64,000 bases of DNA from Peribacillus simplex (lineage in GTDB: Bacteria > Bacillota > Bacilli > Bacillales > DSM-1321): positions 2,322,001 to 2,386,000 of the forward strand of contig NZ_CP011008.1 in NCBI RefSeq assembly GCF_001578185.1. The letters are read 5' to 3'. The notes beneath the pieces are model-generated. The model made no database searches. It saw nothing but the letters and a program-made list of their open reading frames with translations, and was not told the origin of the DNA. Below are positions 4,102-44,009 of this stretch, piece by piece; the first letter of the stretch is position 1; the number at the start of each line of letters is the position of its first letter. Made by a program: the position numbers and the translations under genes.

Positions 4102-4140
4102 GTTTATAACAAAATAAATTGTGGAAGAAGGTTTATAAGG

Positions 4141-11933: not shown

Positions 11934-11941
11934 CAGACTGT

Positions 11942-11978: not shown

Positions 11979-11998
11979 ATGAGTTGTACAATTTGGCC

Positions 11999-12123
11999 GT
12001 TGATTTCCACTCCAGGCACTCGCTTTCCGCGGGCGGTCGGGGAGCCTCCTCGGCTTTCGCCTGCGGGGTCTCCCCTAGACGCGCTTTTCCCGCAGGAGTC
12101 TCGTACCTTCCGTTCCAATCAAC
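11999..12123 (-). repeat. GC-rich dispersed repeat, copy 1 (inside the IS)
   Basis: About 125 bp, far richer in GC than its surroundings, bounded by GTTGATTTCC and CCAATCAAC, with internal complementary blocks (GCGGGCGGTC, GGGGAGCCTCCTCGG, CTGCGGGGTCTCCCC). A second copy in the opposite orientation is at 44441-44538. I recall very similar repeats scattered in many Bacillaceae genomes, but cannot give a verified name. It is not protein-coding as far as I can see. Confidence 0.7.
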
Positions 12124-12206
12124 TTTGTCTTATCTTTTAGATAAACACTTTTGCCCTGAGTCGCTTTTGTTTTAAAATAGAAGTATTAAAACTTGAGGTG
12201 ATGAGG

Positions 12207-13564: not shown

Positions 13565-13624
13565 CATAGTGGGCTCGTAGAACCCCAATCTCCTAACTTC
13601 AGGCAAAAATTCAAAGGGCATCTC

Positions 13625-13663
13625 AAAAAGGGGTTCGGAATTTTTTAATTCCGAACCCCTTTT
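13625..13663. terminator. Terminator hairpin at the right end of the IS1182 element
   Basis: A long perfect inverted repeat (AAAAGGGGTTCGGAATT with its complement AATTCCGAACCCCTTTT) around a T4 loop follows the transposase gene and abuts the right inverted repeat. It can act in both directions. Confidence 0.75.
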
Positions 13664-13675
13664 GTCTACAAACTG

Positions 13676-13700
13676 AAAGGATCTTCAACGAAGATCCTTT
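13676..13700 (-). terminator. Right copy of the duplicated hairpin; terminator of the glycosyltransferase gene
   Basis: Identical to 11909-11933. On the minus strand it lies about 95 bases beyond the stop of the glycosyltransferase gene, so it was probably that gene's terminator before the IS1182 element inserted beside it. Confidence 0.65.
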
Positions 13701-13793
13701 TGATGATTCAATTGACGTGTTACTTCGATAATCTCTTCTAGGAGTGATACAGATGTCAATCGATCATTTTTCTGACCGTACCCCTTATATGCC

Positions 13794-16525: not shown

Positions 16526-16847
16526 TTTTTTTATGAGTGTGTATTGTATTCGGATTTTATTCTAACATGATTAATATCGTTTAGGGCCTGGAAAAGTGTG
16601 AAGGGAAGTGAGTCGCCGAGATGGTGATTTAAAGACGATTATCTTTTCTTTTGTGTATAACTTCATCATTAAATCGCTTTAAATGCGTTATAGGGATATA
16701 AGTATATAATTGTAATTTTTACTTTTTTTTGTAGTAGGGGTAAATTTTGTATGATATTATGTTAGATGGAAAATCTAGATAATGCTGGAAAAGGGGGGTG
16801 CAGATTGGGTGTCCAAACTATTGTAAAAACTTAAGGAGCTCGTCTTC
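16526..16847. other. Leader region of the NRPS locus
   Basis: 320 AT-rich bases between the IS3 element and the exporter gene. The promoter of the krs-like operon must be here. Weak -35/-10-like pairs occur near 16718-16755 (TTTACT to TAAATT at 17 bases; TATGAT at 16750), none convincing. No riboswitch or strong hairpin was seen. AAGGAG lies before the ATG at 16848. Confidence 0.4.
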
Positions 16848-18077
16848 ATGAAACCTACCGACTCAAAAAGTCTATGGGGAAATACAATTTATTTACAAGT
16901 TTTCTCTGCGTATTCACTGCTTATGCTCGGAGTGTTTATTGACATGTTAGCCATCATGACCATTGTTGCTTTTGAATGGGAAGTAGACCCTACCATGATT
17001 GGATTGATTCCTGTTGCGTATGCACTTCCTGGAATTTTATTTAGTTCATGGGCAGGTGTGATGGCTGATCGCTTTAGAAAAATTCCAATTATGATGTTTT
17101 GTAACCTTATGGTTGGTCTATTAACAATTGTTCTTTTATTTGTCCAAAATATTCATTGGCTTTTGTTAGCATTAATGATTCGTTCCATTTTTACCGTTTT
17201 CTATTTTCCTGCACAGCAAACACTAACACGACAGATTGTTTCCCCTGATCTGCTTACCAAAGCGGTAAGTATCAATGGGATAGTTGAGCAAGGAACCAAG
17301 ATAGTGGGTCCACTTATAGGAGGAATGTTACTGAGCTGGTTTCAGCCAGAGTTTTGTCTAATTATAAGGGCAATATGCTGTTTTCTAGCTGCTTTGGTTC
17401 TGTTACCCACAATAAGGTTAAAGGAATCTCTGTCAAGAAAACATTTTGAAAAGCAACAGCAAAGTACTTGGACTGCTTGGTTACAAGGTTGGGGTTATGT
17501 ATTATCCAATCGGATGATTTTATCAACCATGATTTTCGTTACAATAGCTATGGCAGTTTTACAATTAGTGGACTCACAGTTCCCTACTTTATTTAAGAGT
17601 TTGTTCCCAAATGATAAGAGTAAAATGGGATACTTCATTTCTATTATTGGTCTTGGGGGAATAATCGGCGCATTCGTAACTCAGAAATTAAAACATTTTC
17701 AATATGGTTGGGCAGTATGTGGAGGCATTGCTTTAATGGGAATTGGCTTTGGTGGGATTGCTCTGATAAGCCCCAGTACATCCCTCATTTTTGGCTATCT
17801 GATTAGTTTTATCGCTGGTATTGGAAGCGGACTTATGCTTGTGACCAATCAAGTCATTCTTCAAAAAGAATCCCATCAAGAACAGGTTGGAAGAGTATTT
17901 GGGATTCAAAGCAGTTTAACAAATGCAGTCCTTATCATTTCTCCTGCTATGAGCGGACCGCTGGTTCACTTTTTCGGAGTAATCCAACTCTATTTTTATG
18001 TGGGTATTGGGCTCATCATCATTGGAGTAATTGGAGTTTTATTACAAAAATATTTTTGGGTAAACACGAACACATAA
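16848..18077 (+). CDS. krsE: MFS exporter of the kurstakin-type locus
   Basis: 409 residues with about 12 membrane helices and the MFS loop 2-3 motif GVMADRFRKIPIM, of the DHA3/enterobactin-exporter-like type. It starts with AAGGAG about 10 bases upstream of ATG 16848 and ends 32 bases before the first NRPS start. Being first in the same transcript as three lipopeptide synthetase genes, it most likely exports the lipopeptide and gives self-protection; kurstakin loci of the B. cereus group likewise begin with an efflux gene (krsE). The MFS call is firm; the substrate is inferred from position. Confidence 0.85.
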   Translation: MKPTDSKSLWGNTIYLQVFSAYSLLMLGVFIDMLAIMTIVAFEWEVDPTMIGLIPVAYALPGILFSSWAGVMADRFRKIPIMMFCNLMVGLLTIVLLFVQNIHWLLLALMIRSIFTVFYFPAQQTLTRQIVSPDLLTKAVSINGIVEQGTKIVGPLIGGMLLSWFQPEFCLIIRAICCFLAALVLLPTIRLKESLSRKHFEKQQQSTWTAWLQGWGYVLSNRMILSTMIFVTIAMAVLQLVDSQFPTLFKSLFPNDKSKMGYFISIIGLGGIIGAFVTQKLKHFQYGWAVCGGIALMGIGFGGIALISPSTSLIFGYLISFIAGIGSGLMLVTNQVILQKESHQEQVGRVFGIQSSLTNAVLIISPAMSGPLVHFFGVIQLYFYVGIGLIIIGVIGVLLQKYFWVNTNT

Positions 18078-18109
18078 GTGTAAATAATCTTTTGAAGGGA
18101 GGATCTTTT

Positions 18110-21100
18110 ATGTCCAATGAGGAGTGTTACCCTTTTAGTCATCCACAGAGGAGAATATGGTATACAGAAGTTATTTATTCAGGTAAAGGAATATGTAATC
18201 TGAAATTCTTGTTCAAGATCCATCGAAAAATGAATTATTCGATATTAAATCGTGCCGTGAATCGCGTCATCAGTGAACATGATGGTCTGCGTATCAGGCT
18301 GAAAGAAAATAGGCACCGGGAACCTGAGCAATATTTTGTTAAACATCAAGAACGAAAATTTGACTTCTTCGACTTCAGTTCCGAGAGAGATCCGGATTTG
18401 TTGGAAAAATGGATTGAGCAGAAGGCGCAAGAGACGTTTACGTTATTTGATTCTGATTTATACTATTTTGCTTTAATAAAAATAAGCGATAATGAGTGTG
18501 CCGTCTTTGGCAATGTTCATCACATTATCATGGATGGTTTATCAATCCAAATTTGGACTAGACAGATTGCTAAATATTATTATGAGTTTCATAGTGAGAA
18601 AGATGTGAGCATCCCTAAGAGCTCATATGTTCAGTTTCTAATCGATGAACAGACGTACTTGAACAGCAGTCGTTTTCAAAAAGATCAAAGCTTCTGGTTA
18701 GAGGAATTCAAAACACTTCCATCGGTGACGGGATTGAAACCCTATAATGCTTACCAAGTTAGTACGAGAGCATCACGTGAGTCGTTTATATTATCGGAAC
18801 ATTCGAAGAAAAAGGTAGAGGAATTTTCTGACCATTCCGGATTTAGCATATATACTCTTTTTGTTGCTGCGCTTTCGTTATCGATGTATCGATGGACTTC
18901 GTCGCTTGATATTGCCTTGGGAATGGCTTATGGCAATCGTATGACTAAAATGGAGCGGGAATTAATTGGAATGATGGTGAGTACAGTTCCTCTGAGAATG
19001 GATATCGATCCTGAAGAAGAAGCACTCTCATTTATTGGTCGAGTGTCGAGAAAGCAACGTAAAGCCTTACGACATCAGAAATATCCATTTGATTTGTTAT
19101 TAAAGCAGATGAATCAAGAGAATAACAATAGTGTTCGACTTTTTGGAACTACGATCGATTATAGAGAGCGTGGTGAAAGTGGTGACTCTCTTTGGATTCC
19201 AAATCGTGAAGAAGTGCAAGATTTTGCAGTGCATCTCGAAAACTTGACTGATATAGACTCTTTGCAAGTACATATTGATTATCGTGAAGAATTATTTTCC
19301 AAAGAAGAGATAACTCGCTTTTTTAAAACCATGCTAGCATTAATGGAAAACATATATAAAAATCCGAAGCAGAAGGTTGCTGAGATCGAAATCCTTTCAG
19401 AGGAGGATAAAAGAAAAAGTTTAGTAGAGTTCAATGATCCTAAGCTTGACTTTCCACCTCAAGCAACCATTCATGAATTGTTTGAGCAGCAAGCGATGAT
19501 TCATCCCAATGCCATTGCAGTTATGTATGAAAAGGAGAGGCTTACTTATAGGGAGCTTAATGAACGTGCGAATCAATTAGCTCACTATCTGCAGAAAAAA
19601 GGAGTAGGACCCGATTCCTTGGTTGGACTTTGTGTTGAACGTTCTCCTGAAATGGTTGTAGGTATTTTGGGGATTCTGAAGGCTGGTGGAGCTTATGTTC
19701 CACTTGATCCAACATATCCAGAGCAGCGACTTCGGTATATTTTAAAGGACGCTGGCATTGAGTTCGTCGTAATGCAAGAAAGTTTAAAAGGATCGAAATG
19801 GTTACCAGAGAATATCAAATCGATTTGTCTTGATCGAGATCAATTTGAGATTGAGAAAGAAGGTACTGCTTTACCGATTTCTGATGTCAGTCCCCAACAT
19901 CTCGCTTACGTGATTTATACTTCAGGGTCAACAGGGAATCCGAAGGGAGTTATGGTAGAGCATCACAATGTAATTCGTTTATTTAAATCAACGGAATGCT
20001 GGTATCAGTTTGATGAAAAAGATACTTGGACGCTATTCCATTCTTATGCGTTTGACTTCTCGGTATGGGAAGTTTGGGGGGCATTGCTCTATGGTGGAAG
20101 ATTGGTCGTTGTTCCTTACTGGATCAGTCGATCGCCCAAGGATTTCTATCAACTGTTAGTAAAGGAAGAGGTTACGGTTCTTAATCAGACACCATCCGCA
20201 TTTCGACAATTGATACAGGTGTGTGAACAAGAAGATGAGAATAAAAACTTGCATCTGCGCTATGTCATATTTGGTGGGGAAGCACTCGATCCTACCAGCT
20301 TGCTACCATGGTTTCAAAGATATGGAGAGCAGAAGCCGCAGCTAATCAATATGTATGGAATTACAGAAACTACCGTTCATGTTACTTATTATCCAATTAC
20401 TCAAGATGATGTGCAGCATTCTTCAAAAAGTAATATCGGAAAGCGGATTCCAGATTTAGAAGTGTATGTGCTAGACGCTTGTCAACAGCCTGTGCCTTTT
20501 GGCGTAGCTGGCGAACTATATATTGGTGGAGCAGGACTCGCACGTGGGTATTTAAACAGACCCGAATTGACAGCAGAACGTTTCATTCCTCATCTATTCA
20601 GTAGTGACCCGGGAGCTCGATTATATCGGACAGGAGACTTAGCGAGATACTTGCCGGATGGAAGTCTGGATTACCTTGGGAGGATTGATCACCAGGTGAA
20701 GATCCGTGGTTTCCGAATTGAACTCGGGGAAATTGAATCTGCTTTAAACGCGCATGCATCCATAAACGAGGCTGTTGTGATCGTTCGAGAAGATCAGCCA
20801 GGTGATAAACGATTAGTGGCATATGTCGTGGGTGATGGAAATGTAGGTGCATATAGAGAGTATCTCAAGGCGGAACTACCAAGCTATATGGTTCCTTCAG
20901 AATTTGTGATGATGGAGGCCATTCCACTAACTGCGAACGGTAAAGTTGATCGTGAGGCCTTACCTGAACCAGAGGAGTGGGAAATCAAAAGTGAATGTGT
21001 TGCCCCCCGGAATGCTAACGAAGAAACACTGGCTACCATTTGGGAGCAAGTATTAGGGATTAAAAAGGTGGGAATCCATGATAACTTCTTTGAAGTTGGT

Positions 21101-22672
21101 GGAGACTCGATCCTCAGCATTCAGATCATATCACTAGCGAATCAATTGGGCTTAAAACTTACACCTAAGCAAATGTTTGAACACCAAACGATTGCCGAGT
21201 TGGTACAAGTAGTCAAAGAAGATGATCAGGGAGTACAAGCGGAGCAGGGTGCTGTGATGGGAGAGGTACCGCTCACTCCGATTCAGTACTGGTTCTTCGA
21301 GCAAGAACATCCGCATCCACAACATTGGAATCAGTCGATGCTTTTGAGAGTAAGAGCGAGATTGAATGTGGAGTTACTAGAGGAAGCCCTAATATACTTA
21401 CTCAAACATCATGACGCCTTACGTTTCCGATATGGACAGTTGCTCAATGGAACCTGGAAGCAGAGAAATGAGGGGATCGATGAACAGTCTGTACTTCGTG
21501 TGATAAAGCGGAACGATGCTGATCAACAAGGATGGAATCAAGTGATTCAAGATGAGATGGATATCACTCAAGCCAGTTTCAATTTACTTAAAGGTCCGTT
21601 GATGAGAATAGTGTACTTCGATGGTGGTTCGAATGGGAACGATCGATTATTCTGGACGATTCATCATTTAGTAGTAGATGGGGTATCATGGCGAATTCTA
21701 TTGGAAGATTTACAGGCCGTATACAACCAGTTGAAACAAGGTAAGAAGGTTCGGTTACCTGCGAAAAGTACATCCTTTAAAGAATGGTCGGAACGACTAC
21801 AGGCATACAGTGAGTCAGATATTTCAAAAGAAGTACTAGATTATTGGCATGAACACGCAGCAAAACAAGTGATGACGATTCCGGTGGACCATCCTATACA
21901 GGAAACGACAGAAGCATCGACTGATCAAGTGACGATGACGTTGGGAGCAGATGAGACCCACGCGTTGTTACATGAAGTTCCTGCGACTTATAAGACTCGG
22001 ATCAATGAGGTATTATTGACGGCATTAGTACAAGCTATAGCCGACAGTACAAAACAGCATAAGCTTTCTGTTCACATGGAAGGACATGGGAGGGAAGAGA
22101 TGATCGAAGGTGTTGATCTATCGCGGACAGTGGGTTGGTTCACGAGTATTTACCCGGTTCACTTTGATCTTCAGGGAACAACGACACCTATTGAGGGATT
22201 AAAGGCTGTGAAAGATCAATTGCGTCGAATTCCGAATCATGGTGTTGATTATGGTATTTTACGTTACTTGAACAGAGAATTGCTTCCGTTCTATCAGCAG
22301 CAAAAACCATCGATAAGCTTTAATTATTTGGGACAATTGGATCAAGTGTTTTCCAAAGAATCCTTGTTCATGCAGGAGACAGGTTTTACACGCTTAGACC
22401 ATGCTCCAGAATCGAAACCATCTCACCCGATTGATGTTGTCGCTATGGTAAAAGATGAAAAGCTACATTTTGTTTGGATGTACAGTAGAGAACAGTTTTC
22501 TAGATTGACAATTCAAGAGATGGCAAAGGGCATGTTAAATCAGCTTCGATTGCTGATAAATCCACCAGCTGCAGAGTCCGCTTTTACGGTTTCTGACTTT
22601 GCTGATGCAGAGGCTCTGACGGAAGAAAGCTTGAGTAAAGTATTACTTAAATTAACAAAGAAGAGGGTGTAA
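18110..22672 (+). CDS. krsA: NRPS, module 1 (C-A-T-E), Thr-activating, kurstakin synthetase KrsA-like
   Basis: 1520 residues from ATG 18110 (GAAGGGAGG upstream; an in-frame start 54 bases earlier lies inside the exporter gene). Domains: condensation about 1-430 (HHIIMDG, His 137-138), adenylation about 446-950, thiolation with Ser1000 in GGDSILS, epimerisation about 1050-1500 (HHLVVDGVSW at 1185, EGHGREE, GVDYGILRYLN). By GrsA numbering the adenylation residues read D-F-W-N-I-G-M-V-H plus Lys of NGKVDR, the classical Thr code. Because the assembly line starts with a C domain, this is probably a starter C domain that loads a fatty acyl group; the E domain then gives D-configured Thr. The stop lies 2 bases before the next ATG, so translation is coupled. 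Confidence 0.92.
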   Translation: MSNEECYPFSHPQRRIWYTEVIYSGKGICNLKFLFKIHRKMNYSILNRAVNRVISEHDGLRIRLKENRHREPEQYFVKHQERKFDFFDFSSERDPDLLEKWIEQKAQETFTLFDSDLYYFALIKISDNECAVFGNVHHIIMDGLSIQIWTRQIAKYYYEFHSEKDVSIPKSSYVQFLIDEQTYLNSSRFQKDQSFWLEEFKTLPSVTGLKPYNAYQVSTRASRESFILSEHSKKKVEEFSDHSGFSIYTLFVAALSLSMYRWTSSLDIALGMAYGNRMTKMERELIGMMVSTVPLRMDIDPEEEALSFIGRVSRKQRKALRHQKYPFDLLLKQMNQENNNSVRLFGTTIDYRERGESGDSLWIPNREEVQDFAVHLENLTDIDSLQVHIDYREELFSKEEITRFFKTMLALMENIYKNPKQKVAEIEILSEEDKRKSLVEFNDPKLDFPPQATIHELFEQQAMIHPNAIAVMYEKERLTYRELNERANQLAHYLQKKGVGPDSLVGLCVERSPEMVVGILGILKAGGAYVPLDPTYPEQRLRYILKDAGIEFVVMQESLKGSKWLPENIKSICLDRDQFEIEKEGTALPISDVSPQHLAYVIYTSGSTGNPKGVMVEHHNVIRLFKSTECWYQFDEKDTWTLFHSYAFDFSVWEVWGALLYGGRLVVVPYWISRSPKDFYQLLVKEEVTVLNQTPSAFRQLIQVCEQEDENKNLHLRYVIFGGEALDPTSLLPWFQRYGEQKPQLINMYGITETTVHVTYYPITQDDVQHSSKSNIGKRIPDLEVYVLDACQQPVPFGVAGELYIGGAGLARGYLNRPELTAERFIPHLFSSDPGARLYRTGDLARYLPDGSLDYLGRIDHQVKIRGFRIELGEIESALNAHASINEAVVIVREDQPGDKRLVAYVVGDGNVGAYREYLKAELPSYMVPSEFVMMEAIPLTANGKVDREALPEPEEWEIKSECVAPRNANEETLATIWEQVLGIKKVGIHDNFFEVGGDSILSIQIISLANQLGLKLTPKQMFEHQTIAELVQVVKEDDQGVQAEQGAVMGEVPLTPIQYWFFEQEHPHPQHWNQSMLLRVRARLNVELLEEALIYLLKHHDALRFRYGQLLNGTWKQRNEGIDEQSVLRVIKRNDADQQGWNQVIQDEMDITQASFNLLKGPLMRIVYFDGGSNGNDRLFWTIHHLVVDGVSWRILLEDLQAVYNQLKQGKKVRLPAKSTSFKEWSERLQAYSESDISKEVLDYWHEHAAKQVMTIPVDHPIQETTEASTDQVTMTLGADETHALLHEVPATYKTRINEVLLTALVQAIADSTKQHKLSVHMEGHGREEMIEGVDLSRTVGWFTSIYPVHFDLQGTTTPIEGLKAVKDQLRRIPNHGVDYGILRYLNRELLPFYQQQKPSISFNYLGQLDQVFSKESLFMQETGFTRLDHAPESKPSHPIDVVAMVKDEKLHFVWMYSREQFSRLTIQEMAKGMLNQLRLLINPPAAESAFTVSDFADAEALTEESLSKVLLKLTKKRV

Positions 22673-22674
22673 CG

Positions 22675-25600
22675 ATGAGCGACATTATCGATATATACGG
22701 ATTATCACCCTTGCAAAAAGGGATACTGTTTCATACTTTATATGATCAAGACGATGATCATTCTTTTTCCTACATTGTACAGGTAGATTTCATACTTGGC
22801 GGTCGATTGGATGTTGCTGCTTTCGAAAAGGCTTGGGAATACATCATTCACCGACATGAGATCCTACGTTCTGTTTTTGTGTGGGAGGAAGTAGAAAAGC
22901 CATTGCAAGCTGTTTATCAACGTCTTCCTTTTACCATTCGTCGAGAAGATTGGAGCGCTCTTCCATGTGGAGAGAGGGAAAAGAAATTACAACAGTTTTT
23001 GAATGCTGATCGGAGGCAAGGGTTTTCGTTAGACGAAGCACCGTTGATGAGAATCACTGCGATCAAAGAAGCAGAAGAAGAAACGAGAATCATTTGGACA
23101 CATCATCATATTTTGTTGGATGGATGGAGTGTGTCCCTGGTCTTCAGTGAAGTGATGGAAGTTTATTTCAAGATGATAAAGGGAGAAGCATTCGACCTTC
23201 CCAAGTCTCTTCCCTATAAAAAATATATCCAATGGATTAATAAACAAGATCGAAGTAAAGCTGAGAAATTTTGGACAGAAGAATTAAAAGGATTTCATGC
23301 ACCTACGCCATTAATGATGGAAAGAAATGACCAGGGGCAGGAGAAGGGTTATGGAGAGAGCGTTTATCGGCTATCTGAGGAACTGACTGAGACTTTAAAA
23401 GAGTGGGTGCGAAATAGTCAGCTAACATTAAATACGTTAGTACAAGGAGCCTGGGCTTACTTGATGAGCCGCTATAGCGGCGAAAGCGACATCGTATTTG
23501 GTGTGACTAGCTCTGGACGTCCTGCTGAATTGGTAGGAGCAGAGAAAATGGTTGGTCTATTTATAAACACATTGCCTACCCGAATTCGGGTAACGGATGA
23601 TCATTCATTAGTGGACTGGCTCCGTAAGATACAGATGAAAGAACTGGAACGGAGACAATACGAGTATAATTCGTTGGTCGATATTCAAGGTTGGAGTGAA
23701 GTTCCAAGGGGTAGTGATTTATTTCGTACCTTGTATGTGTTCGAAAATTACCCGATACAAGGAGAGCGCAAGTCTGATTTAAGTGTACTTGAGGTCCAAA
23801 GTGCTGAACAAACAAATTATCCTTTGACGCTCATTGCAATGCCAGATAAGCAACTCACTTTGAAGTTGATGTATGACCGGCATCATTTTGATGAAGAGAC
23901 CATTCAGCGGATTCAGGGCCATCTATCGCAAACATTGATCCAGATGACGAAAAGCTCAGACCCAAAGCTATCCGAAATTACCCATTTAACAATGGAAGAG
24001 CGGACACAACTGCTAGAGAAATGGAATGATACCCAAGTAGATTATTCATGTGAAAGCATGATTCATGCGTTATTTGAGCAGCAAGTGGAGAAAAGGCCAG
24101 AAGCGATCGCGGTTATGTATGAAAATGAGCAACTTACCTATAAAGAGCTGAATGAGCGTGCTAATCAGCTGGCTCACTATTTACAGAAGCAAGGTGTGGG
24201 TCCAGAGTCTTTAGTTGGCGTTTATATGGAACGATCCCCGGAAATGATGATAGGGTTGCTAGGAATTCTAAAGTCAGGAGGAGCTTATGTTCCGCTTGAT
24301 CCTACGTATCCCGAGAAGCGGCTACGCTATATATTAGAAGATGCAAGAATCGAAGTGCTAGTGACGCAAGAAAGGTTAGAAAAAATAGGTATATCCGAAC
24401 AAATCGAAATAATTTGTATGGATCAAGATCGCATTGCGATTGAACAAGAAGAACCGACAGCATGTACAAGCAGTGTAACAGGAAAAAATTTAGCATACGT
24501 CATGTATACTTCCGGATCTACAGGAAAACCAAAGGGAGTGATGATCGAGCATCATTCGGTGATCAATTACCTTGAATGGATGCAACATCAATATCCACTA
24601 TCTGAAAAAGATGTGGTTTTGCAGAAAACACCGATCTCATTCGACGTATCTGTGTGGGAGTTATTTTGGGGAATTAGTGTAGGAGCATGTGTATCCTTCC
24701 TTCCCCCGGGCGGTGAGAAAGATCCTTCTATAATAGCTGAAGTGATAGAGAAGCATCGGGTTACGATTGTCCAATTTGTTCCCTCGATGCTTTCTGTTTT
24801 CATAGATCACTTCAATCAGATTGAGCTGAAACGGAAATGTTCATCCGTGCGTCATGTGTTTTCTGGTGGGGAAGAGCTTAGTCCGGGGTTGGTTAGACGA
24901 TTTCAACAGTACTGGGATGAAAGCGGACAAGTTAAATTGACCAACTTTTATGGACCAACAGAAGCAACCATTTATGTGAATGCATATGACTGTCAATCCA
25001 ATAAAGAATTTGTTTCCATTGGCAATCCGATTCAAAATATCCAGCTTTATGTATTCGATCAGAACCAGCGCTTGCAATCGGTAGGGATTGAGGGTGAGTT
25101 GTATATTGGTGGTGCAGGCTTAGCACGTGGTTACTTAAACCGACCTGATCTAACTGCTGAACGATTCGTTCCGCATCCGTTTCAATTAGGAGAACGGCTA
25201 TATCGAACCGGGGATCTAGTAAGATATCTAACTGATGGAAATTTAAAATTCATAGGAAGAATGGACCATCAAGTGAAAGTGCGCGGCTTTCGGATTGAGC
25301 TTGGAGAAATTGAAGCGACTTTAGAAAGGCATACGTCTATCAAAGAGGCTGTCGTGATCGTTCGAGAAGATCGCCCAGGCGATCAGCGCTTGGTAGCGTA
25401 TGTGATAAGCGATGGAAATATCCAAAAGTGGCGAGAGTATCTCCAAAACCAATTACCGAATCACATGGTTCCAGCACACCTTGTAGAGTTGGATTATTTC
25501 CCGCTTACCCCGAATGGGAAAATTGACCGAAAAGCCTTACCAGAACCGGAGGGACAGCCTATGGGAGCCTTTAACGTCCTGCCGCGAACGCCATCGGAAG

Positions 25601-35100: not shown

Positions 35101-38100
35101 GAAGTGTTCATGAATGGCGGGAGCATCTGCAAACACATTTACCGAATTACATGGTTCCGGCACACTTTGTCGAGATGGCATTTTTACCACTCACACCAAA
35201 TGGAAAACTCGATTTGAAAGCATTACCTATGCCTGATGAACCATCTACTGAAAATACCGTATACCCAAGAACTCTGATGGAAGAGCTCATCGCTTCGGTA
35301 TGGAGTCAAGTACTGGAAATGGAAAATATTGGTGTGCAGGCTTCCTTCTTCGAACTTGGTGGCCACTCGCTACTTGCTACGCAAGTTGTCTCCCGGTTAA
35401 AAGAAGCATTACAAATCGAACTGCTAGTGCGTGAACTGTTTGAGCATTCAACGGTGGAGGCGTTGGCGAAGCGACTGGACCAATTGTGTAAAGGAGACAA
35501 AAAACGAGAGATTCCACCGCTTATACCGATGGAACGGGGAGAAGCCATTCCGCTCTCTTATGCCCAACAGCGCCTGTGGTTCATCGACCAATTTCAGCCC
35601 AATAGTGCACTATATAATATGCCGATGGTATGCCGTCTTACAGGGAATTGGGTACCCGAAGCATTGGAGACGGGATGGAATAGGCTGATAGAACGTCATG
35701 AATCTTTACGGACGGTATTCCATGAAGTGGATGGTCAACCTGTGCAGCAGATACAACCGTATGCTCTCCGGTCCCTTCCTAAAATGGATCTAACTACGCT
35801 TTCTCCGGAAGAGCGAGAAAGAGAAATGGAACAATGGATCAAAAACGAAGTCGAAGCACCATTTGACTTAGTGCAAGGTCCGTTGATTCGTGGGCAAATC
35901 GTGCAAATCGCTGAAGAAGAATGGATTCTTCTTTGTACGATGCATCATATTATCTCTGATGGCTGGTCGATGGAAATCTTGCTCCAAGAATGGATGGCAT
36001 TCTATGAAGATGCGGTTGGCGGCAAACCAGCAGAACTCGCACCATTACCGATTCAATATGCTGACTTTGCCCAATGGCAAAGGGAATGGTTAAAAGAAGA
36101 AGTACTTGATCGGCAGCTTGCATATTGGAAAGAAGAGCTGTCTGGCGAGTTACCAGTCTTAATGTTGCCGATTGATCGTCCTCGTCCTGCGGTGCAAACC
36201 CATAGCGGATCGACACACACTGTGTTGCTGTCACGCGCGTTACGCGACAAATTGAATGAGCTTAGTCGTCAAGAAGGATCGACGCTCTTCATGACCTTAC
36301 TTGCATCGTATCAAAGCTTTCTCTCTCGTTATACAGGACAATCAGATATTCTTGTCGGAAGCCCGATTGCAAATCGGAATTATCGCGAGATTGAAGGATT
36401 GATTGGTTTCTTCGTCAACACTTTGGTTTATCGGGCTGATCTGAGTGGCGCACCAACATTCCAAGAGTTGCTGTCTCAGGTACGGACAAAAGCATTGAAG
36501 GCGTATGAGTACCAAGATGTTCCGTTTGAAAAGATTGTAGAAGTCATACAATCCGAGCGAAGTATAAGTCATTCTCCAATCTTCCAAACCATGTTTACGT
36601 TGCAAAACACGAAACATGAGCTACCAGAGCTTCATGGAAGAAGTTTAGAAGCGATGGAAATTCAGGATTCGAACGCCAAGTTTGATTTGAGTTTAAGCGC
36701 CATAGAGAAGGAAGAGGGTTTGATCCTTTCTTTTGTCTTTAATACTGGCTTATTTGATGTTGTAACCATCAGACGTATGGCTGAGCATTTTGAAAAATGG
36801 TTGAATGAAATCGTGGAACATCCCGATAAATCACTGGCGAAGTTGACGTTGCTACCGGAGATGGAGAGGCAATTGCTGGAAGAGTGGAATGATAATGCTG
36901 AAACGTATCCACGTGAGAGTGTGATCCACAGACTTTTTGAAGATCAAGTGGATCTTACACCTGACACGGTGGCGGTAGTGGATGAAAATCAGCAGTTGAC
37001 GTATCGGGAGCTGAATGAAAAAGCAAACCAATTGGCCCATTATCTCCAAAAATGTGGGGTTGGGACCGAATCATTGGTAGGGCTTTGTTTCCAACGTTCA
37101 GTTGAGATGATTGTCGGTCTAATGGGAATCTGGAAAGCTGGGGCAGCCTATGTTCCGTTGGATCCATTGTACCCAGAAAGTCGCCTGCGATATATCCTGC
37201 AGGACACAGGGATTCAAGTATTGGTCACGAACGAAGCATTAAAAGAGTGGATACCCGAAGAAGTCGAAGCAGTTTGTTTGGATCGAGATCAAGCGATGAT
37301 CTCGCGAGAAAGTACCCTTTCACCAATATGTGAAGTGGCAGGAGAAAACTTGGCATATGTGATCTATACATCGGGTTCGACCGGGAATCCAAAGGGCGTT
37401 TTGGTGCAACATCATTCGGTACTAAATCTATCATATGGTCTACAGAAAGAGGTTTTTTCGCATGAGACACCTGTTAACATGCGTGTCGGTTTAAATGCTT
37501 CGATCGCCTTTGATGTATCCATTCAGCAATTACAAATGCTTTTGTATGGTTCAAGTTTGTATATTATTCCGGACGAAGTTCGCAGTGATCCCCAACAGTT
37601 TGTATCCTATATTCGGGAGAATAAGTTGGAAATGTTCGATATGACTCCTTCATTACTCCAATTACTCATAGATGGCGGGTTGTTAGAAACAAACGATGGT
37701 GTTCATGTTCCAAGCAAGGTACTGGTCGGTGGCGAAGCAATTGTACCGTCACTGTGGGAACAATTAGTTGAGGCTGACAAGATCCATTTTTATAACGTGT
37801 ATGGTCCTACGGAATGTACTGTCGATGCTACATGCTATCGTATCAAAAAAGATGGTAAGCGAGTAACCATTGGGCGTCCGTTGCCGAACGTTCAAGCCTA
37901 TGTATTGGATGGGAATTGGTTACCTGTTCCAGTTGGTGTAACGGGTGAACTTTATATCGGTGGAGCAGGTCTAGCGAGAGGATACTTGAATCGTCCAGAG
38001 TTAACGTCCGAACGTTTTATTCCCCATCCTTTCAAAGAAGGAGAGAGGCTATATCGAACAGGAGATCTCGTGAGGCACCTTCCTGATGGTAACTTGGATT

Positions 38101-41100
38101 ATCTAGGAAGATTGGATAACCAAGTGAAAATTAGAGGATTTCGGATTGAGCTTGGGGAAATTGAGGCAACCTTACAGGAGCATCTCTCGGTAAAAGAGGC
38201 CGTTGTGATGGTGAGAGAAGATCAGCCAGGAGATAAGAGATTGGTAGCCTATGTAGTGGGTGAAGGGCGTAAAGAAGAATGGCGCGAGTATCTCAAAGCA
38301 CAACTGCCAAGCCATATGGTTCCCGCCTACTTTGTCGGGATGGAAGAGTTACCATTGACCTTAAATGGAAAGATTGATCGGAAAACTTTGCCTGTGCCAG
38401 ATCATCAAGGGACAAAAGGAGGCTACGTGGCTCCAAGAAATGAGAGTGAACAAATACTTACCATGATATGGGAACGTGTGTTAGGCACAAAACCGATTGG
38501 CATTCATGAAAACTTTTTTGAAATCGGTGGAGACTCGATTCTCAGCATTCAGATTGTCTCTCGCGCAAGGCAAGCAGGTTTGCAATTGACACCAAAGCAA
38601 ATGTTTGAACACCAAACGATTTCCGAGTTGGCGCAAGTAGTCAAAGAAGAGCAGGGTGTACAAGCGGAACAAGGAGTCGTAACTGGAGAACTGATCCTTA
38701 CACCAATCCAGCAATGGTTTTTTGCACAAGATCATCCTAACCCACATCATTGGAATCAATCCATGTTTTTTAGAACAAAAGAGCGTCTGGATATAGTATT
38801 ACTGGAGAAAGCTGTCCGTACCCTTCTAATCCATCACGATGCCTTGCGTTTAAGATATGAACGTTTTCCGGATGGAGCTTGGAAACAGCGGAACGAAGGG
38901 ATTGAAGAACACTCGACTCTGACCGTGATTTCATTAGAAGAAGTGCCACAAGCAGAATGGCATCAAGTAATTCAAGCAGAGATTGACACTGCACAAGCAA
39001 GCTTGCACTTACACGCAGGACCGCTAATGAGAATGGTGTATTTTGATGAAGGCGAGAAGAGAGCCGGCCGATTATTCTGGGTGATTCATCACTTAGCAGT
39101 GGATGGTGTTTCTTGGCGGATTTTACTGGAGGATCTGCAAACGGCGTATAATCAAGCGAGCCATGCTCAAATGATCCAATTACCTACAAAAAGTACATCC
39201 TTTAAAGCGTGGTCGGAGAAATTGCATCATTACGCTGAAGCTGGGATTGTGCAAGGAGTGCGTGATTACTGGGAGCAGCAATCCGAACAAGAGGTGGCTA
39301 TGCTACCAGTGGATACCACCCTCGAAGTTCCAGCAAACACAGGAACCGAGGAGATTACCGTGGTGCTGGATGAGAAAGAGACCCGTGCGTTATTGCAAGA
39401 GATTTCAAGCACTCATCGTGTCCAAATCAATGAAGTGCTATTGACAGCATTGGTACAGGCTACGGCAGCATGGACAGGTCATACGACGCTGACCGTGGAT
39501 TTGGAGGGTCATGGCCGGGAAGAGATCATCGAAGACGTTGACCTATCGAGAACCGTGGGATGGTTTACAAGTATCTATCCTGTTCACTTGAATATTACAG
39601 GTGCTAACACGCCCACCGCAGCATTAAAAGCAGTCAAAGAACAAGTGCGCCAAATTCCTAATAAGGGCGTTGACTATGGGATTTTGCGGTACTTGAATCC
39701 AGCGATGCGTGAGCGATTCCAGTCTCAAATCACTCCGTCCATTAGTTTTAACTATCTTGGACAATTTGACCAAATGTTCTCTGACGATGCAATGTTTGCT
39801 CCGGAGACCGGGTTTACGCGCTTAGATCATGCTCCTGGTTCCAAGCGATCACATTTGATCGATGTAATCGGGATTGTAACCGATGGAAAACTTCATTTCA
39901 CTTGGGTGTACAATGTTGGACAGTTTGCGGAGTCGACCATTCAAAGTGTTGCCGAGAATATGCTCCATCAACTGAGTGGATTGATTCATTCTTCGGGTGG
40001 AGAATCTACGCTGACCGTTTCGGATTTTGCGATTGCAAATCTCATCCCAGCAGATTTGAACAAAGTACTATGTAAGATGAATCGTGGAAAGAATTATCCG
40101 ATTATCGACCTGTATCCGCTATCACCTTTGCAGGAAGGCATGATCTTTCATACGCTGCATGATCAAGGGGATGAACATTCCGTGCCGTATATGGTGCAAT
40201 TAAGTTTCCTGTTTAAAGGGAAATTGGATATTCTTACTTTCGAGCAGGCGTGGAAATCGACGATCCAGCGGCATGAGATCTTTCGTTCGGCATTTGTGTG
40301 GGATGAGATTGAAAATCCTTTACAAGTGGTGTATGCACATATCCCATTTAAGCTGAATGAAGTGGATTGGAGTGCGCTGTCTGCTGAAGAAAAAGAGGAG
40401 AAACGAAAAGCCTTTTTGGCGACGGATCGAAAACAGGCCTTTCTTTTTGATGAAGCGCCATTGATGCGGGTGACTGTCATTCAAGAAGCGGAGGATGAAT
40501 ATCGGGTTGTTTGGACGCATCACCATATTTTGTTGGATGGATGGAGCTTGCCACTGGTCTTTAACGAATTGCTTACAGTGTATCAGAAGAGGATAAAAGG
40601 AGAGGCTGTGGATTTACCCAAGTCACCGCTATACAAGAAATATATTCAATGGCTGAAAGTGCAGGATCTGGAACAAGCGGAACAATTCTGGAGAGAGAAA
40701 CTCAAAGGCTTTACAGCGCCAACCCTGCTTGGCTTAGAAAGTAAGGAGCAAGAAAAAGGTTACACGGAGAAGGTAACTTATTTATCAGAAGAGCAAACCC
40801 AAGCGCTACAAAACTGGGCGAAGCGAAAGAGGCTCACTTTGAACACGGTAATTCAAGGTGCGTGGGCGTATCTCATGAGCCGGTATAGTGGAGAAGATGA
40901 CATTGTCTATGGTGTAACTAGCTCGGGACGCCCTACGGAGATTATTGATGTTGAAAACATTGTAGGTCCCTTTATTACCACATCACCGACGCGAATTAAG
41001 TTGCTAGATGATATAAAAGTAATGGATTGGTTGCAGAAGATACAAGAGGAAGAGATAGAAAGAAGACAATATGAATATGCTTCATTGACAGATATTCAAG

Positions 41101-44009
41101 GATGGAGTGAAGTTCCTAGAGGAACCCCGCTGTTCCATAGCTTGTATGTGTTTGAAAACTACCCAGTGAAAGAGGAGTCTTCAGGAAATCTAGAAATTGG
41201 TGAGTTGGAAGGAGTAGAGCAAACTCATTATCCATTGGGATTGACGGTTGTTCCAGAAAGCCAGTTGTTGTTAAAGTTGAAGTATGATCGCAGCAAGTTT
41301 AATGGCCTAACCATTGAACGGATGCTGGGTCATTTAAGCCAGGTGTTAAAGCAAATGATCGAGAACGTTGATCAAACTCTGTCGGAGCTGGTGTATGTTA
41401 CGGAAATAGAAAAGAAACAACTACTGGAAGAATGGAATGATAATGCCGCAGCATATCCACGTGAGAGTGTGATCCACAAACTGTTTGAAGATCAAGTGGA
41501 TCGTACACCTGACACGGTGGCTGTAGTGGATGAAAATCAGCAGTTGACGTATCGGGAGCTGAATGAAAAAGCAAACCAATTGGCCCATTATCTCCATAAA
41601 TGTGGGGTTGGGACCGAATCATTGGTCGGGCTTTGTTTCCAACGTTCAGTTGAGATGATTGTCGGTCTCATGGGAATCTGGAAAGCCGGGGCAGCTTATG
41701 TTCCATTGGATCCAGCGTATCCAGAAAGTCACCTGCGATATATTCTGGAGGACACAGGGATTCAAATATTGGTTACGAATGAAGTATCACAAGGTTGGAT
41801 ACCTGAAGAAGTTGAAACAGTTTATTTGGACCGGGATCAAGCAATGATTTCGCAAGAAAACACCCTTTCACCAATATGTAAAGTGACAGGAGAAAACTTG
41901 GCGTATGTGATCTACACTTCAGGTTCGACCGGGAATCCAAAAGGGGTTTTGGTGCAGCATCATTCGGTATTAAATCTATCCTATGGTTTACAGAAAGAGG
42001 TTTTTTCGCATGAGACACCTGTTAACATGCGCGTTGGTCTGAATGCCTCAATCGCCTTTGATTCATCCGTTAAACAATTACAAATGCTTTTGTATGGTTC
42101 TAGTTTGTATATTATTCCGAACGAAGTTCGCAGTGATCCTCAACAGTTTGTATCTTATATTCGGGAGAATAAGTTGGAAATGTTCGATATAACTCCTTCA
42201 CTACTCCAATTAATCATAGATGAGGGGGCGTTAGAAACAAACGATGGTGTTCATGTTCCAAGCAAGGTACTGGTTGGTGGAGAAGCGATTATGCCATCAC
42301 TGTGGGAACAATTAGTAGAGGCTGACAAGGTCCATTTTTATAACGTGTATGGTCCTACGGAATGTACTGTCGATGCGACATGCTATCGTATCAAAAAAGA
42401 TAGTAAGCGGGTTACCATTGGGCGTCCGTTGCCGAACGTTCAAGCCTATGTATTGGATGGGAATTGGTTACCTGTTCCAGTTGGTGTAACGGGTGAACTT
42501 TATATCGGTGGAGCAGGCCTGGCGAGAGGATACTTGAATCGTCCAGAGTTAACGTCCGAACGTTTTATTCCTCATCCATTTAATGATGGGGAACGGTTAT
42601 ACCGGACGGGAGATCTAGTCCGCTATTTAGCTGATGGCCATTTGGATTATCTGGGAAGAATCGATAATCAAGTGAAAATTCGAGGATTCCGGATTGAGCT
42701 TGGAGAGATTGAAGCGAATTTAGAATGTCATCCATCGGTGAAAGAGGCAGTAGTCTTGATAAGAGAGGACCAACCAGGAGATCAGAGATTGGTTGCCTAT
42801 GTGGTGGGTGAAGGAAATATGCATGAATGGCGTGAGCATCTCAAGAGACAAGTACCGAATTATATGGTTCCTGCACACTTTATTGAGGTAGACGCGGTTC
42901 CGCTTACAACAAATGGGAAGGTTGATCGAAAGGCACTGAACAGCTTAACGATTCAAAGAGAAAGTACCTTTTCTACACCAATCATCCCACGGGATGAAAT
43001 CGAGTATCAGCTGATTACGATCTGGCAGGATTTGCTACAGATAGAAGATGTCCATGTAAACGATGATTTCTTCGATTTAGGGGGTCACTCTCTCCTTGTA
43101 ATCAAATTGATTTCAAAGGTCAGAGAGAAATTTGGAAAAGAGATTAAGGTGTCCGCACTGATTAAGAACCCGACAGTGGAAGGGATCGCTTATCTCATCC
43201 GTGAGAATCATGGTATGGCAAAATCGTTATCGGTTCTGGTTCCACTACAAGAATCAGAGAAAAGACCTTTCTTCTGTGTTCATCCGTTTATGGGTAATGT
43301 ATTCTGTTACATTCAGCTAGCAAGGTTACTCAAGGATCACTGCTCATTTTATGGTCTACAGAATCCTCTCGTAGAGAAAGAAGGAATGAATGGGTTGACT
43401 TTATCGGAAGTAGTTCAACTCTACATCGAGGAAATGAAGCGCGCTCAGCCAGTGGGGCCGTATCGTCTGGGAGGATGGTCTCTGGGCGGTGCCATCGCCT
43501 ATGAAATCGCAACTATGCTACGGAACCAGGGAGAAGAAGTTGAGGTGTTGGTACTCATGGATACCAAGGTGCCTTCAGAACAGGATTACAAGGCAGAGGA
43601 TGAAATGCTATCTTATATATTGGAGCATTTCAGCCATTTAGAGCTAGTGGAGCAGGAAGAAGAGCTCGTCCATCAACAGGGCATGCTTGTTGATCAGTTG
43701 ATCGCGGAAGGAGTGCTCCGGCCCGATGCGGATCTTACGAGTCTAAAGCAGATTACCGATGCTCACAGGAAGTGTCTAAATTTAATGGCAGAACATATTT
43801 TAACGCCATATTTTGGGGAGGTCATCTACTTCAGTGCTGAAGAAGGCAGAGAGTTGTTCACGGATTGGAAGCCGTTATTACAGGGGAAAGTGAATAAACA
43901 TTCGGTTCCAGGGCCGCACGAGGAGATCGTCTTCTCCCCAGCAGTGGAAAAGATAGCCAAAAGTCTCGTAAATGAGTTTGAAGGGAGCGTAACTCAGATT
44001 TCCAGGTGA
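29139..44009 (+). CDS. krsC: NRPS, modules 4-7 with terminal thioesterase, KrsC-like
   Basis: 4956 residues: C-A-T, C-A-T, C-A-T-E, C-A-T-TE. Carrier serines are 1034, 2077, 3133 (GGDS, before E) and 4651. Adenylation codes read D-V-W-H-F-S-L-V-D (Ser), D-S-Q-F-I-G-Q-V-V (unassigned), D-V-Q-D-L-G-V-V-D (Gln-type) and D-S-K-D-L-G-V-V-D (Glu-type). The E domain (about 3186-3630, His3317) makes D-Gln, and the following C (YPLSPLQEGMIFHTL) is of the D-C-L type as expected. The thioesterase has GWSLGG with Ser4781 and should release, probably by cyclisation. Oddities: the first C domain has H164-H165-x3-D169-A170 where Gly is usual; A10 motifs are NSKIDR in module 4 and NGKLDL in module 5. The gene starts inside the previous stop (ATGA). 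Confidence 0.92.
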   Translation: MRSDLLAKLDSLSPEKREWLQKQMQKKEKETLPLSYAQQRLWFMDRFNPNSSLYNIPTVWRLKGHWLPGALEKGLNRLIERHDSLRTVFKEVGDQPVQHIVEYLPGKLPVEDYSHLPLEVKEKEIESLIAREAQEPFDLMNGPLIRNQLVQLGKDEWLLLCTMHHIISDAWSIGILINELLAFYEEETSGKPAGLNSLSIQYADFAKWQKQWLQGEVLDRQLTYWQEELSGELPILQLPLDCPRPVTQTYAGDTCRVIVPHTLLSALKNLSQREGSTLFMTLMAAYQSFLARYTGQNDILVGSPIANRNHKGVEELIGFFVNTLVYRADLNGAPTFQEILSQIKKKALKAYEYQDIPFEKVVEAVQPERSTSHSPIFQTMFTLQNIKQERLELSGRSLEMIESNISIAKFDLSLTAYEVEEDLHVTFEYNTDLFDSRTIARMAGHFENWLNEIVHHPDESYTNLTMLSDTEQKQLLEEWNDTDAVYAHESMIHELFEQQVARTPEAVAVVYEGGQLTYQELNEKANKMAHYLQKRDIGPESLVGICFERSPDMMIGLLGILKAGGAYVPLDPSYPENRLRYILKDSQIQVLLTKEALQGWLPEGIQAICLDRDQAAISKESGLAPVSGVTAKNLAYIIYTSGSTGNPKGVMIEHHSVINRLQWMQKNYPLSEQDTILQKTPFSFDVSVWELFWWSFVGARVCLLPPGGEKDPAMIEECIERYRVTTMHFVPSMLSAFLDYMEKSKAKKDVSSLCQVFTSGEALNSEQVRRFKGVFYDFQQTKLSNLYGPTEATVDVTYYNCDLEKELMLIPIGRPIDNTDLYVLDQNQQVVPVGVAGELYLGGVGLARGYFNRPELTAERFIPHPFKEGERLYRTGDLVRYLNDRNLEYIGRVDNQVKIRGFRIELGEVEAVLHDHPSVKEAVVLVREDHPGDKRLVAYVVGEGNTGEWREHLKAQLPNYMVPAYFVEMEAMPLTPNSKIDRKALLALEGQSVSADIVLPRTPGEELIASVWSQVLGIGNIGVQASFFELGGHSLLATQVVSRLQEVFQIELPLRELFEYSTVEALAKRLDQLRKGDKKREIPPLMPMERGDAIPLSYAQQRLWFIDQFTPNSALYNMPMVCRLTGNWVPEALEKGWNQLIERHESLRTVFHEVDGHPVQQIQPHAFRSLSQMDLTMLSPEERESEVKRLLQQETEVPFDLEEGPLIRTILLRVGEEEWVLLCTLHHIVSDGWSMGVLLEEWIAFYKEAMGEKEAELEPLPIQYADFAQWQKGWLKEEVLEQQLHYWQEELSGELPLLQLPMDRPRPAVQTHRGSTHTVLLSRSLRDKLNEISRQEGSTLFMTLLAAYQSFLSRYTGQEDILVGSPIANRNYRESEGLIGFFVNTLVYRADLSGTPTFQDILSRVRQKALNAYEYQDIPFEKVVEVVQPERSTSHSPIFQTMFILQNMKQELPVLADRRIEMIESHSPIAKFDLSVMAAETEEGLLFAFEYNKDLFDVTTIERMAGHFETWLNEVSHHPQKPLNSLGMLSEFERDLLVETWNDTAMEMSQVGLICDGFEDQVARRPGAIAVVDQMREWTYGELDARANQLAHVLQRKGVVPESVVGVYLPRSAELMASLLGILKAGGAYVVLDPLYPKSRLQYMIEDAGVQIVVTTAAQESLSEQVETVRLEEITDESVIAPKRRVKPEHLAYIVYTSGSTGKPKGVMVEYRSLMNMVSWHQAVYQITAQDRATQIAGIAFDSAVQEIWPYLTAGAALYLSTEELRINPEALRDWLIDSRITASFAPTPILERLLKLSWPEKTDLRFIITGGDQLTQYPSEQIPFAVINQYGPSENTVVATDCYVPVGMSTGTPSIGRPIANTEVYVLDSHLQPVPVGVIGDLYIGGKSLARGYANRPELTEEKFILHPFKSGERLYFTGDKASYLPGGDLQFHGRMDDQVKIRGFRIELGEVEATLQAHLSVKEAVVLVREDHPGDKRLVAYVAGEGSVHEWREHLQTHLPNYMVPAHFVEMAFLPLTPNGKLDLKALPMPDEPSTENTVYPRTLMEELIASVWSQVLEMENIGVQASFFELGGHSLLATQVVSRLKEALQIELLVRELFEHSTVEALAKRLDQLCKGDKKREIPPLIPMERGEAIPLSYAQQRLWFIDQFQPNSALYNMPMVCRLTGNWVPEALETGWNRLIERHESLRTVFHEVDGQPVQQIQPYALRSLPKMDLTTLSPEEREREMEQWIKNEVEAPFDLVQGPLIRGQIVQIAEEEWILLCTMHHIISDGWSMEILLQEWMAFYEDAVGGKPAELAPLPIQYADFAQWQREWLKEEVLDRQLAYWKEELSGELPVLMLPIDRPRPAVQTHSGSTHTVLLSRALRDKLNELSRQEGSTLFMTLLASYQSFLSRYTGQSDILVGSPIANRNYREIEGLIGFFVNTLVYRADLSGAPTFQELLSQVRTKALKAYEYQDVPFEKIVEVIQSERSISHSPIFQTMFTLQNTKHELPELHGRSLEAMEIQDSNAKFDLSLSAIEKEEGLILSFVFNTGLFDVVTIRRMAEHFEKWLNEIVEHPDKSLAKLTLLPEMERQLLEEWNDNAETYPRESVIHRLFEDQVDLTPDTVAVVDENQQLTYRELNEKANQLAHYLQKCGVGTESLVGLCFQRSVEMIVGLMGIWKAGAAYVPLDPLYPESRLRYILQDTGIQVLVTNEALKEWIPEEVEAVCLDRDQAMISRESTLSPICEVAGENLAYVIYTSGSTGNPKGVLVQHHSVLNLSYGLQKEVFSHETPVNMRVGLNASIAFDVSIQQLQMLLYGSSLYIIPDEVRSDPQQFVSYIRENKLEMFDMTPSLLQLLIDGGLLETNDGVHVPSKVLVGGEAIVPSLWEQLVEADKIHFYNVYGPTECTVDATCYRIKKDGKRVTIGRPLPNVQAYVLDGNWLPVPVGVTGELYIGGAGLARGYLNRPELTSERFIPHPFKEGERLYRTGDLVRHLPDGNLDYLGRLDNQVKIRGFRIELGEIEATLQEHLSVKEAVVMVREDQPGDKRLVAYVVGEGRKEEWREYLKAQLPSHMVPAYFVGMEELPLTLNGKIDRKTLPVPDHQGTKGGYVAPRNESEQILTMIWERVLGTKPIGIHENFFEIGGDSILSIQIVSRARQAGLQLTPKQMFEHQTISELAQVVKEEQGVQAEQGVVTGELILTPIQQWFFAQDHPNPHHWNQSMFFRTKERLDIVLLEKAVRTLLIHHDALRLRYERFPDGAWKQRNEGIEEHSTLTVISLEEVPQAEWHQVIQAEIDTAQASLHLHAGPLMRMVYFDEGEKRAGRLFWVIHHLAVDGVSWRILLEDLQTAYNQASHAQMIQLPTKSTSFKAWSEKLHHYAEAGIVQGVRDYWEQQSEQEVAMLPVDTTLEVPANTGTEEITVVLDEKETRALLQEISSTHRVQINEVLLTALVQATAAWTGHTTLTVDLEGHGREEIIEDVDLSRTVGWFTSIYPVHLNITGANTPTAALKAVKEQVRQIPNKGVDYGILRYLNPAMRERFQSQITPSISFNYLGQFDQMFSDDAMFAPETGFTRLDHAPGSKRSHLIDVIGIVTDGKLHFTWVYNVGQFAESTIQSVAENMLHQLSGLIHSSGGESTLTVSDFAIANLIPADLNKVLCKMNRGKNYPIIDLYPLSPLQEGMIFHTLHDQGDEHSVPYMVQLSFLFKGKLDILTFEQAWKSTIQRHEIFRSAFVWDEIENPLQVVYAHIPFKLNEVDWSALSAEEKEEKRKAFLATDRKQAFLFDEAPLMRVTVIQEAEDEYRVVWTHHHILLDGWSLPLVFNELLTVYQKRIKGEAVDLPKSPLYKKYIQWLKVQDLEQAEQFWREKLKGFTAPTLLGLESKEQEKGYTEKVTYLSEEQTQALQNWAKRKRLTLNTVIQGAWAYLMSRYSGEDDIVYGVTSSGRPTEIIDVENIVGPFITTSPTRIKLLDDIKVMDWLQKIQEEEIERRQYEYASLTDIQGWSEVPRGTPLFHSLYVFENYPVKEESSGNLEIGELEGVEQTHYPLGLTVVPESQLLLKLKYDRSKFNGLTIERMLGHLSQVLKQMIENVDQTLSELVYVTEIEKKQLLEEWNDNAAAYPRESVIHKLFEDQVDRTPDTVAVVDENQQLTYRELNEKANQLAHYLHKCGVGTESLVGLCFQRSVEMIVGLMGIWKAGAAYVPLDPAYPESHLRYILEDTGIQILVTNEVSQGWIPEEVETVYLDRDQAMISQENTLSPICKVTGENLAYVIYTSGSTGNPKGVLVQHHSVLNLSYGLQKEVFSHETPVNMRVGLNASIAFDSSVKQLQMLLYGSSLYIIPNEVRSDPQQFVSYIRENKLEMFDITPSLLQLIIDEGALETNDGVHVPSKVLVGGEAIMPSLWEQLVEADKVHFYNVYGPTECTVDATCYRIKKDSKRVTIGRPLPNVQAYVLDGNWLPVPVGVTGELYIGGAGLARGYLNRPELTSERFIPHPFNDGERLYRTGDLVRYLADGHLDYLGRIDNQVKIRGFRIELGEIEANLECHPSVKEAVVLIREDQPGDQRLVAYVVGEGNMHEWREHLKRQVPNYMVPAHFIEVDAVPLTTNGKVDRKALNSLTIQRESTFSTPIIPRDEIEYQLITIWQDLLQIEDVHVNDDFFDLGGHSLLVIKLISKVREKFGKEIKVSALIKNPTVEGIAYLIRENHGMAKSLSVLVPLQESEKRPFFCVHPFMGNVFCYIQLARLLKDHCSFYGLQNPLVEKEGMNGLTLSEVVQLYIEEMKRAQPVGPYRLGGWSLGGAIAYEIATMLRNQGEEVEVLVLMDTKVPSEQDYKAEDEMLSYILEHFSHLELVEQEEELVHQQGMLVDQLIAEGVLRPDADLTSLKQITDAHRKCLNLMAEHILTPYFGEVIYFSAEEGRELFTDWKPLLQGKVNKHSVPGPHEEIVFSPAVEKIAKSLVNEFEGSVTQISR
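32322..32470 (+). repeat. Recurring T-to-C junction, copy 2
   Basis: See 25768-25920. This copy and the one at 35451 are almost identical at DNA level and continue into closely similar C domains, showing that modules 5 and 6 share recent ancestry or gene conversion. Confidence 0.75.
35451..35600 (+). repeat. Recurring T-to-C junction, copy 3
   Basis: Third copy of the GDKKREIPPL linker DNA with flanking T and C segments, as described for 25768 and 32322. Confidence 0.75.
36890..38180 (+). repeat. Duplicated adenylation-domain DNA, copy in module 6
   Basis: The A domain of module 6 is nearly identical in DNA to 41430-42720 (module 7) over most of its length, including silent positions. The main protein differences fall at specificity positions (FDVSIQQLQ here, FDSSVKQLQ in module 7). 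Confidence 0.85.
41430..42720 (+). repeat. Duplicated adenylation-domain DNA, copy in module 7
   Basis: Partner of 36890-38180. The similarity covers the A-domain core through the RTGDLV region and fades towards the carrier domain. Confidence 0.85.

Follow-up and report, generated by a model that had tools for sequence, protein, structure and literature searches.

Kurstakins, known from the B. cereus group, are lipopeptides with surface activity and a limited effect against fungi (PMC4397504), and the claims made about their role in survival in insect cadavers have been corrected on account of a faulty mutant (PMC5127582). The heptapeptide was read by MS/MS as Thr-Gly-Ala-Ser-His-Gln-Gln, Gln7 included (PMC10672896), and the 2025 survey by Campbell and Mevers confirms this sequence by NMR and, together with Marfey analysis, gives it as D-allo-Thr-Gly-Ala-Ser-His-D-Gln-Gln, with epimerization (E) domains in modules 1 and 6 of the synthetase (PMC12751101). 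The same survey reports a krs cut-off of at least 70% identity and at least 50% cover to krsA-C of B. thuringiensis 4BA1 and describes contig NZ_JAUSUV010000014 of Croceifilum oryzae as carrying a krsA-C that is complete and highly dissimilar (73% identity to 4BA1 at 99% cover), while its main text names Priestia, Croceifilum, and others, not Peribacillus, as krs carriers (PMC12751101).

Within the window, i.e., the whole analyzed stretch of 64,000 nucleotides from Peribacillus simplex, we recognize what is, with a probability of roughly 0.85, a complete krsEABC kurstakin synthetase locus. The order krsE-krsA-krsB-krsC, the seven modules, the E domains in modules 1 and 6, and the thioesterase (TE) at the end are shared with the krs clusters of the B. 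cereus group, as are the Thr, Ala, and Ser calls and the positions at which the specificity codes are unreadable. The system itself is known; the new elements are Peribacillus as a carrier, a sharply bounded 27-kb block, and an apparent copying of adenylation (A) domains between modules. Investigated for its promotion of plant growth, the genus Peribacillus would in this way join the carriers of kurstakin genes.

Gene and domain organization

The genome (5.52 Mb, 2 contigs) contains, at positions 16848 to 44009 of the window, four intact co-directional genes coding for an MFS exporter and three nonribosomal peptide synthetases (NRPS) of 1538, 2155, and 4956 aa, all on the forward strand. The krsE-type exporter (16848..18077, 409 aa; PF07690, 1e-40) is 93, 90, 75, and 73% identical to the MFS proteins adjoining krsA in P. 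frigoritolerans RU293, in a genome of the same family as Priestia (G697), in Croceifilum, and in genome G066, respectively. The KrsA-type NRPS (18056..22672) consists of module 1, with a starter condensation (C) domain at 18119-19417, an A domain with a Thr code at 19481-20944, a carrier (T) domain at 21026-21211, and an E domain at about 21257-22555; its translation probably starts at the ATG at 18110, behind GAAGGGAGG, rather than at the TTG at 18056. The KrsB-type NRPS (22675..29142) comprises module 2 (D-C-L, A, T) and module 3 (C, A, T), with the C domain of the latter at 25855-27195. The KrsC-type NRPS (29139..44009) holds modules 4, 5, 6 (with an E domain), and 7 (with a D-C-L domain), followed by the TE. 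In particular, the A domain of module 6 lies at 36936..38390, with a Gln-type code and a core DNA that closely resembles that of A7; the E domain of module 6 lies at 38688..40058, with its HHLAVDGVSW motif intact; the A domain of module 7 lies at 41460..42944, with a Glu-type code including Lys at position 239; and a single, integrated, C-terminal TE lies at 43266..43934 (PF00975, 2.4e-27; GWSLGG).

Over the locus, Pfam counted 7 AMP-binding, 7 PP-binding, 9 condensation-fold (7 C and 2 E), and 1 thioesterase domains, and the positions of motifs together with the pairwise identities gave the layout Cs-A-T-E / C-A-T-C-A-T / (C-A-T)x3-E-C-A-T-TE. These results agree with the initial annotation, which had described an exporter and NRPS genes of 1, 2, and 4 modules, with an N-terminal C domain and a terminal TE. 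The E domains, limited to modules 1 and 6, are 58% alike, and the C domains directly after them, C2 and C7, have an identity of 59%, as against about 25% to the L-C-L group C3-C6, whose members are 64 to 76% alike; the earlier reading of D-C-L domains placed exactly behind the E domains is thus borne out. C1 is divergent (16 to 23% versus the other C and E domains of the locus) with an intact HHIIMDG motif, and its position and divergence suggest a starter C domain for fatty acylation. The HHxxxD[G/A] motif is kept in every C and E domain, C4 presenting the variant HHIISDA.

Downstream of krsC, the neighboring genes code for DoxX-like, EfeU, LysR, CysJ, and CysI proteins. Clusters of the B. 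cereus group have sfp and krsD (type II TE) behind krsC (PMC10672896); different from that arrangement, both are absent next to the Peribacillus locus, and neither was evident beside the Croceifilum cluster, as judged from the list of open reading frames alone. The RNA-family scan gave no match. sfp and krsD are accessory genes outside the assembly line, and elsewhere in the genome a 240-aa frame matches PF01648, consistent with an Sfp-type enzyme. Since sfp is missing from the locus and this phosphopantetheinyl transferase match is present elsewhere, we assume that the carrier domains would be modified in trans.

Relationship to described krs clusters and predicted pathway

KrsA, KrsB, KrsC, and KrsE are 77, 80, 77, and 75% identical at the protein level to their counterparts on NZ_JAUSUV010000014 of Croceifilum oryzae, with the same order of genes and modules. 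The link to B. thuringiensis krsA-C runs through Croceifilum, the window being 77 to 80% identical to Croceifilum and Croceifilum 73% identical to 4BA1; since the Croceifilum cluster has been published as krs, it follows that the locus in the window should be regarded as a krs locus too, as the initial annotation had proposed.

The gene and domain order, the active-site motifs, the codes for Thr1, Ala3, and Ser4, the Gln-type code 6, and the homology to krs are shown by the sequence, and the pathway would run as follows. The starter C domain of KrsA would join a fatty acyl group to Thr, which the E domain of module 1 would convert to D-allo-Thr; KrsB would add Gly and then Ala; and KrsC would add Ser, His, D-Gln, and finally Gln (or Glu). 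Gly2 and His5 are assigned by orthology, their codes being atypical but conserved, and are to be taken as probable. The TE would free the chain, either as a lactone between the last residue and Ser4 or as a linear acid, and KrsE would export the kurstakin, the carriers having been activated in trans by the genome-encoded Sfp-type enzyme. Lactone formation, export, activation in trans, and a biosurfactant or antifungal activity are therefore predictions for this locus.

Specificity codes and residue assignments

The codes extracted from A domains 1 to 4 were DFWNIGMVHK, DVWQFGFIYK, DLFNNALTYK, and DVWHFSLVDK, and those from A domains 5 to 7 were DSQFIGQVVK, DVQDLGVVDK, and DSKDLGVVDK; position 278 of the module 5 code is F by ungapped alignment, where a pattern script gave S. 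We take DFWNIGMVHK to specify Thr, DLFNNALTYK Ala, and DVWHFSLVDK Ser, these three being exact or canonical codes, and DVQDLGVVDK to be of the Gln type and DSKDLGVVDK of the Glu type. The exact code strings had no match in the literature search. These assignments coincide with those previously read by eye, except that the D-Thr proposed for residue 1 retains its Thr code but should rather be D-allo-Thr, going by the kurstakin structure given in the survey (PMC12751101).

The initial annotation had further suggested that residues 2, 5, and 7 may differ from those of kurstakin. In a survey of 123 genomes, however, the predictor output for nearly all kurstakin clusters, including that of B. thuringiensis HD-1, was (D-Thr)(X,Ala)(Ser,Leu,D-X,Glu) (PMC12206863), and an earlier survey predicted Thr-Ser-Ala-Ser-Leu-X-Gln for a cluster sharing 99% identity with the HD-1 one (PMC4397504). 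An unassigned residue 2, an unassigned residue 5, and a Glu-like residue 7 are the normal signature of kurstakin synthetases, so that the suspected changes mostly reflect a code-reading problem common to the known kurstakin genes, with the possible exception of residue 7. Modules 2, 5, and 7 of kurstakin synthetases are thus read wrongly by the standard A-domain predictors, and variants predicted by code alone deserve distrust.

As for residue 7, the same assembly line could load Glu through A7 and yield a more acidic product, 0.984 Da heavier. Lys of the Glu type is indeed present at position 239: A7 reads DSKDLGVVDK in the window, in RU293, and in G697, versus DVQDLGVVDK in Priestia and DAQDWGVVDK in Croceifilum, and Lys or Gln at this position is the classical Glu/Gln switch. 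Moreover, the codes of A6 and A7 of the window differ at positions 236 and 239 only, and they still do so amid DNA that looks homogenized (in G697, 99 to 100% identical just downstream), as if selection kept the two pockets apart. The Glu-type code of module 7 may distinguish the Peribacillus locus from krs of the B. cereus group; nevertheless, predictors also call Glu in module 7 of the genuine clusters of B. thuringiensis, B. cereus, and others (PMC12206863), the product of which has Gln7 by MS/MS (PMC10672896), within a heptapeptide confirmed by NMR (PMC12751101). As Lys239 occurs in the window, RU293, and G697 but Gln239 in Priestia and Croceifilum, residue 7 may be either Gln or Glu, and we regard a Glu7 kurstakin as a possible but rather doubtful product.

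A kurstakin-like lipopeptide with residues other than Gly and His at positions 2 and 5 appears improbable. DVWQFGFIYK and DSQFIGQVVK match none of the Gly or His codes that we take to be canonical, and the layout of the A5 code, presumably Pro-like, does not by itself identify His. On the other hand, A2 found its best match among solved structures in module 2 of LgrA (446 bits, versus 381 bits for module 1 of LgrA), which loads Gly, and the intact relatives keep both codes, the one difference being an I/T change in module 5 of Croceifilum. Since real kurstakin clusters are predicted to have X or Ser at position 2 and Leu at position 5 (PMC12206863, PMC4397504) and yet make Gly2 and His5, the codes provide no evidence of a change at these two residues, and that part of the earlier suggestion does not hold. 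A heptapeptide synthetase of another family, e.g., of the surfactin type, which likewise has seven modules and begins with a starter C domain, would have to resemble this layout by coincidence, and it is ruled out for practical purposes by the Croceifilum link and by the identity ranking, with 31 to 48% over full-length KrsA for other NRPS in the genome searches versus 63 to 92% for the krs-like group.

Apparent copying of A domains between modules

In KrsC of the window, RU293, and G697, the DNA of A6 and A7 is mostly 85 to 100% identical over the A core and 33 to 78% outside it. At fourfold sites of the core, A6 and A7 of one genome differ by 0.14 to 0.23, less than the orthologs of the window and G697 (0.28 to 0.36), whereas outside the core the relation is reversed (0.68 to 0.73 for A6 versus A7, 0.20 to 0.27 for the orthologs); between the window and RU293, paralog and ortholog values overlap. 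Furthermore, in trees of parts of the core, A6 of G697 groups with A7 of G697 (support, 0.98 to 0.999). In Croceifilum, A6 nearly duplicates A1 of the same assembly line (89 to 100% DNA identity in windows along some 540 codons), a likeness far above that of the flanking modules, and carries a Thr code; this is reminiscent of B. mycoides BGSC 4BQ1, for which a Thr6 variant has been predicted (PMC12206863). The A6/A7 copying in Peribacillus and the A1-to-A6 copying in Croceifilum have the appearance, at the level of sequence, of gene conversion inside the assembly line, in a set of five loci, and would be a natural example of what engineers attempt with NRPS.

It is possible to hypothesize, more tentatively still than for Glu7 taken by itself, that krs clusters diversify by repeated copying of their own A domains, from A1 to A6 in Croceifilum (Thr6) and between A6 and A7 in Peribacillus, G697, and Priestia (Gln/Glu switching), and that a Glu7 kurstakin is made here as a consequence. 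If true, Glu7 would be a genuine change to the peptide of a family whose described variation is confined to the fatty acid.

Distribution, block boundaries, and genomic context

Among the 35 Peribacillus congeners searched, a single ortholog was found, in P. frigoritolerans RU293 (contig of 131,043 bases), with 94.7% DNA identity over 27.2 kb and all seven codes identical to those of the window. G697 carries a full locus with KrsA, KrsB, and KrsC 85, 84, and 86% identical; in the whole-genome match, the aligned stretch of its KrsA includes one in-frame TAA, and a later-starting ORF of 1525 aa is open. Croceifilum oryzae DSM 46876 also has a full locus, which shares codes 1 to 4 with the window and, but for the I/T change, code 5, and differs in its divergent krsE, in the Thr code of module 6, and in the DAQDWGVVDK code of module 7. 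G066 retains krsA and krsE and has a truncated krsB. Two genomes of the same family as Thermoactinomycetaceae-like genomes (G383 and G392) were set aside, as they hold partial or more distant relatives only. The contig scan for krs gave matches in P. frigoritolerans and Croceifilum only, and no krs match occurred in the viral contigs or in the family of G492; none of the loci obtained from the genomes searched by class, order, family, and genus belonged to the B. cereus group.

The only match of the plasmid tblastn search was a truncated krsC (A6-T-E-C7-A7-T-TE, 91% identical) on plasmid unnamed5 of Priestia megaterium KF18 (NZ_CP085447.1), in which, unlike in the window, the A7 pocket is A6-like (Gln type). 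This plasmid also encodes a MobP2 relaxase and VirB4, and the krsC remnant has no gene entry in the plasmid table.

The block common to RU293 (94.7%) and G697 (86.3%) is in one piece of 27.2 kb (16819..43986, forward strand): the homology sets in 21 to 29 bases upstream of krsE and breaks off about 24 bases short of the krsC stop codon, and the flanks immediately beyond are unrelated. The sharp ends and the unrelated flanks indicate that the genes moved as a block, each copy relying on local upstream sequence. In RU293, the chromosomal neighborhood differs from that of the window, and an upstream reading frame continues into krsE, the frame of krsE staying open upstream through about 100 codons of unrelated sequence (joined coordinates 36498-38051); this suggests that the block inserted into another gene or immediately after one. 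An element with a DDE transposase and 41-bp inverted ends lies upstream of krsE in the window (11908-13701), and a related transposase element (82 to 87%) lies about 220 bp beyond krsC in RU293. Positions 1-5100 of the window hold genes for an aldehyde dehydrogenase, an aspartate dehydrogenase-like protein, the alpha and beta subunits of a Rieske dioxygenase, an SDR, and a glyoxalase-like protein, and the stretch 1-4099 recurs in G697 (78.5%), in the same order and on the same, upstream side of the krs block.

Outside the window, a second large NRPS set occurs at about 743541-765596 of the genome, with frames of about 2511, 1574, 2575, and 978 aa, which may correspond to the koranimine cluster reported for P. 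frigoritolerans; similar second sets are present in several other Peribacillus.
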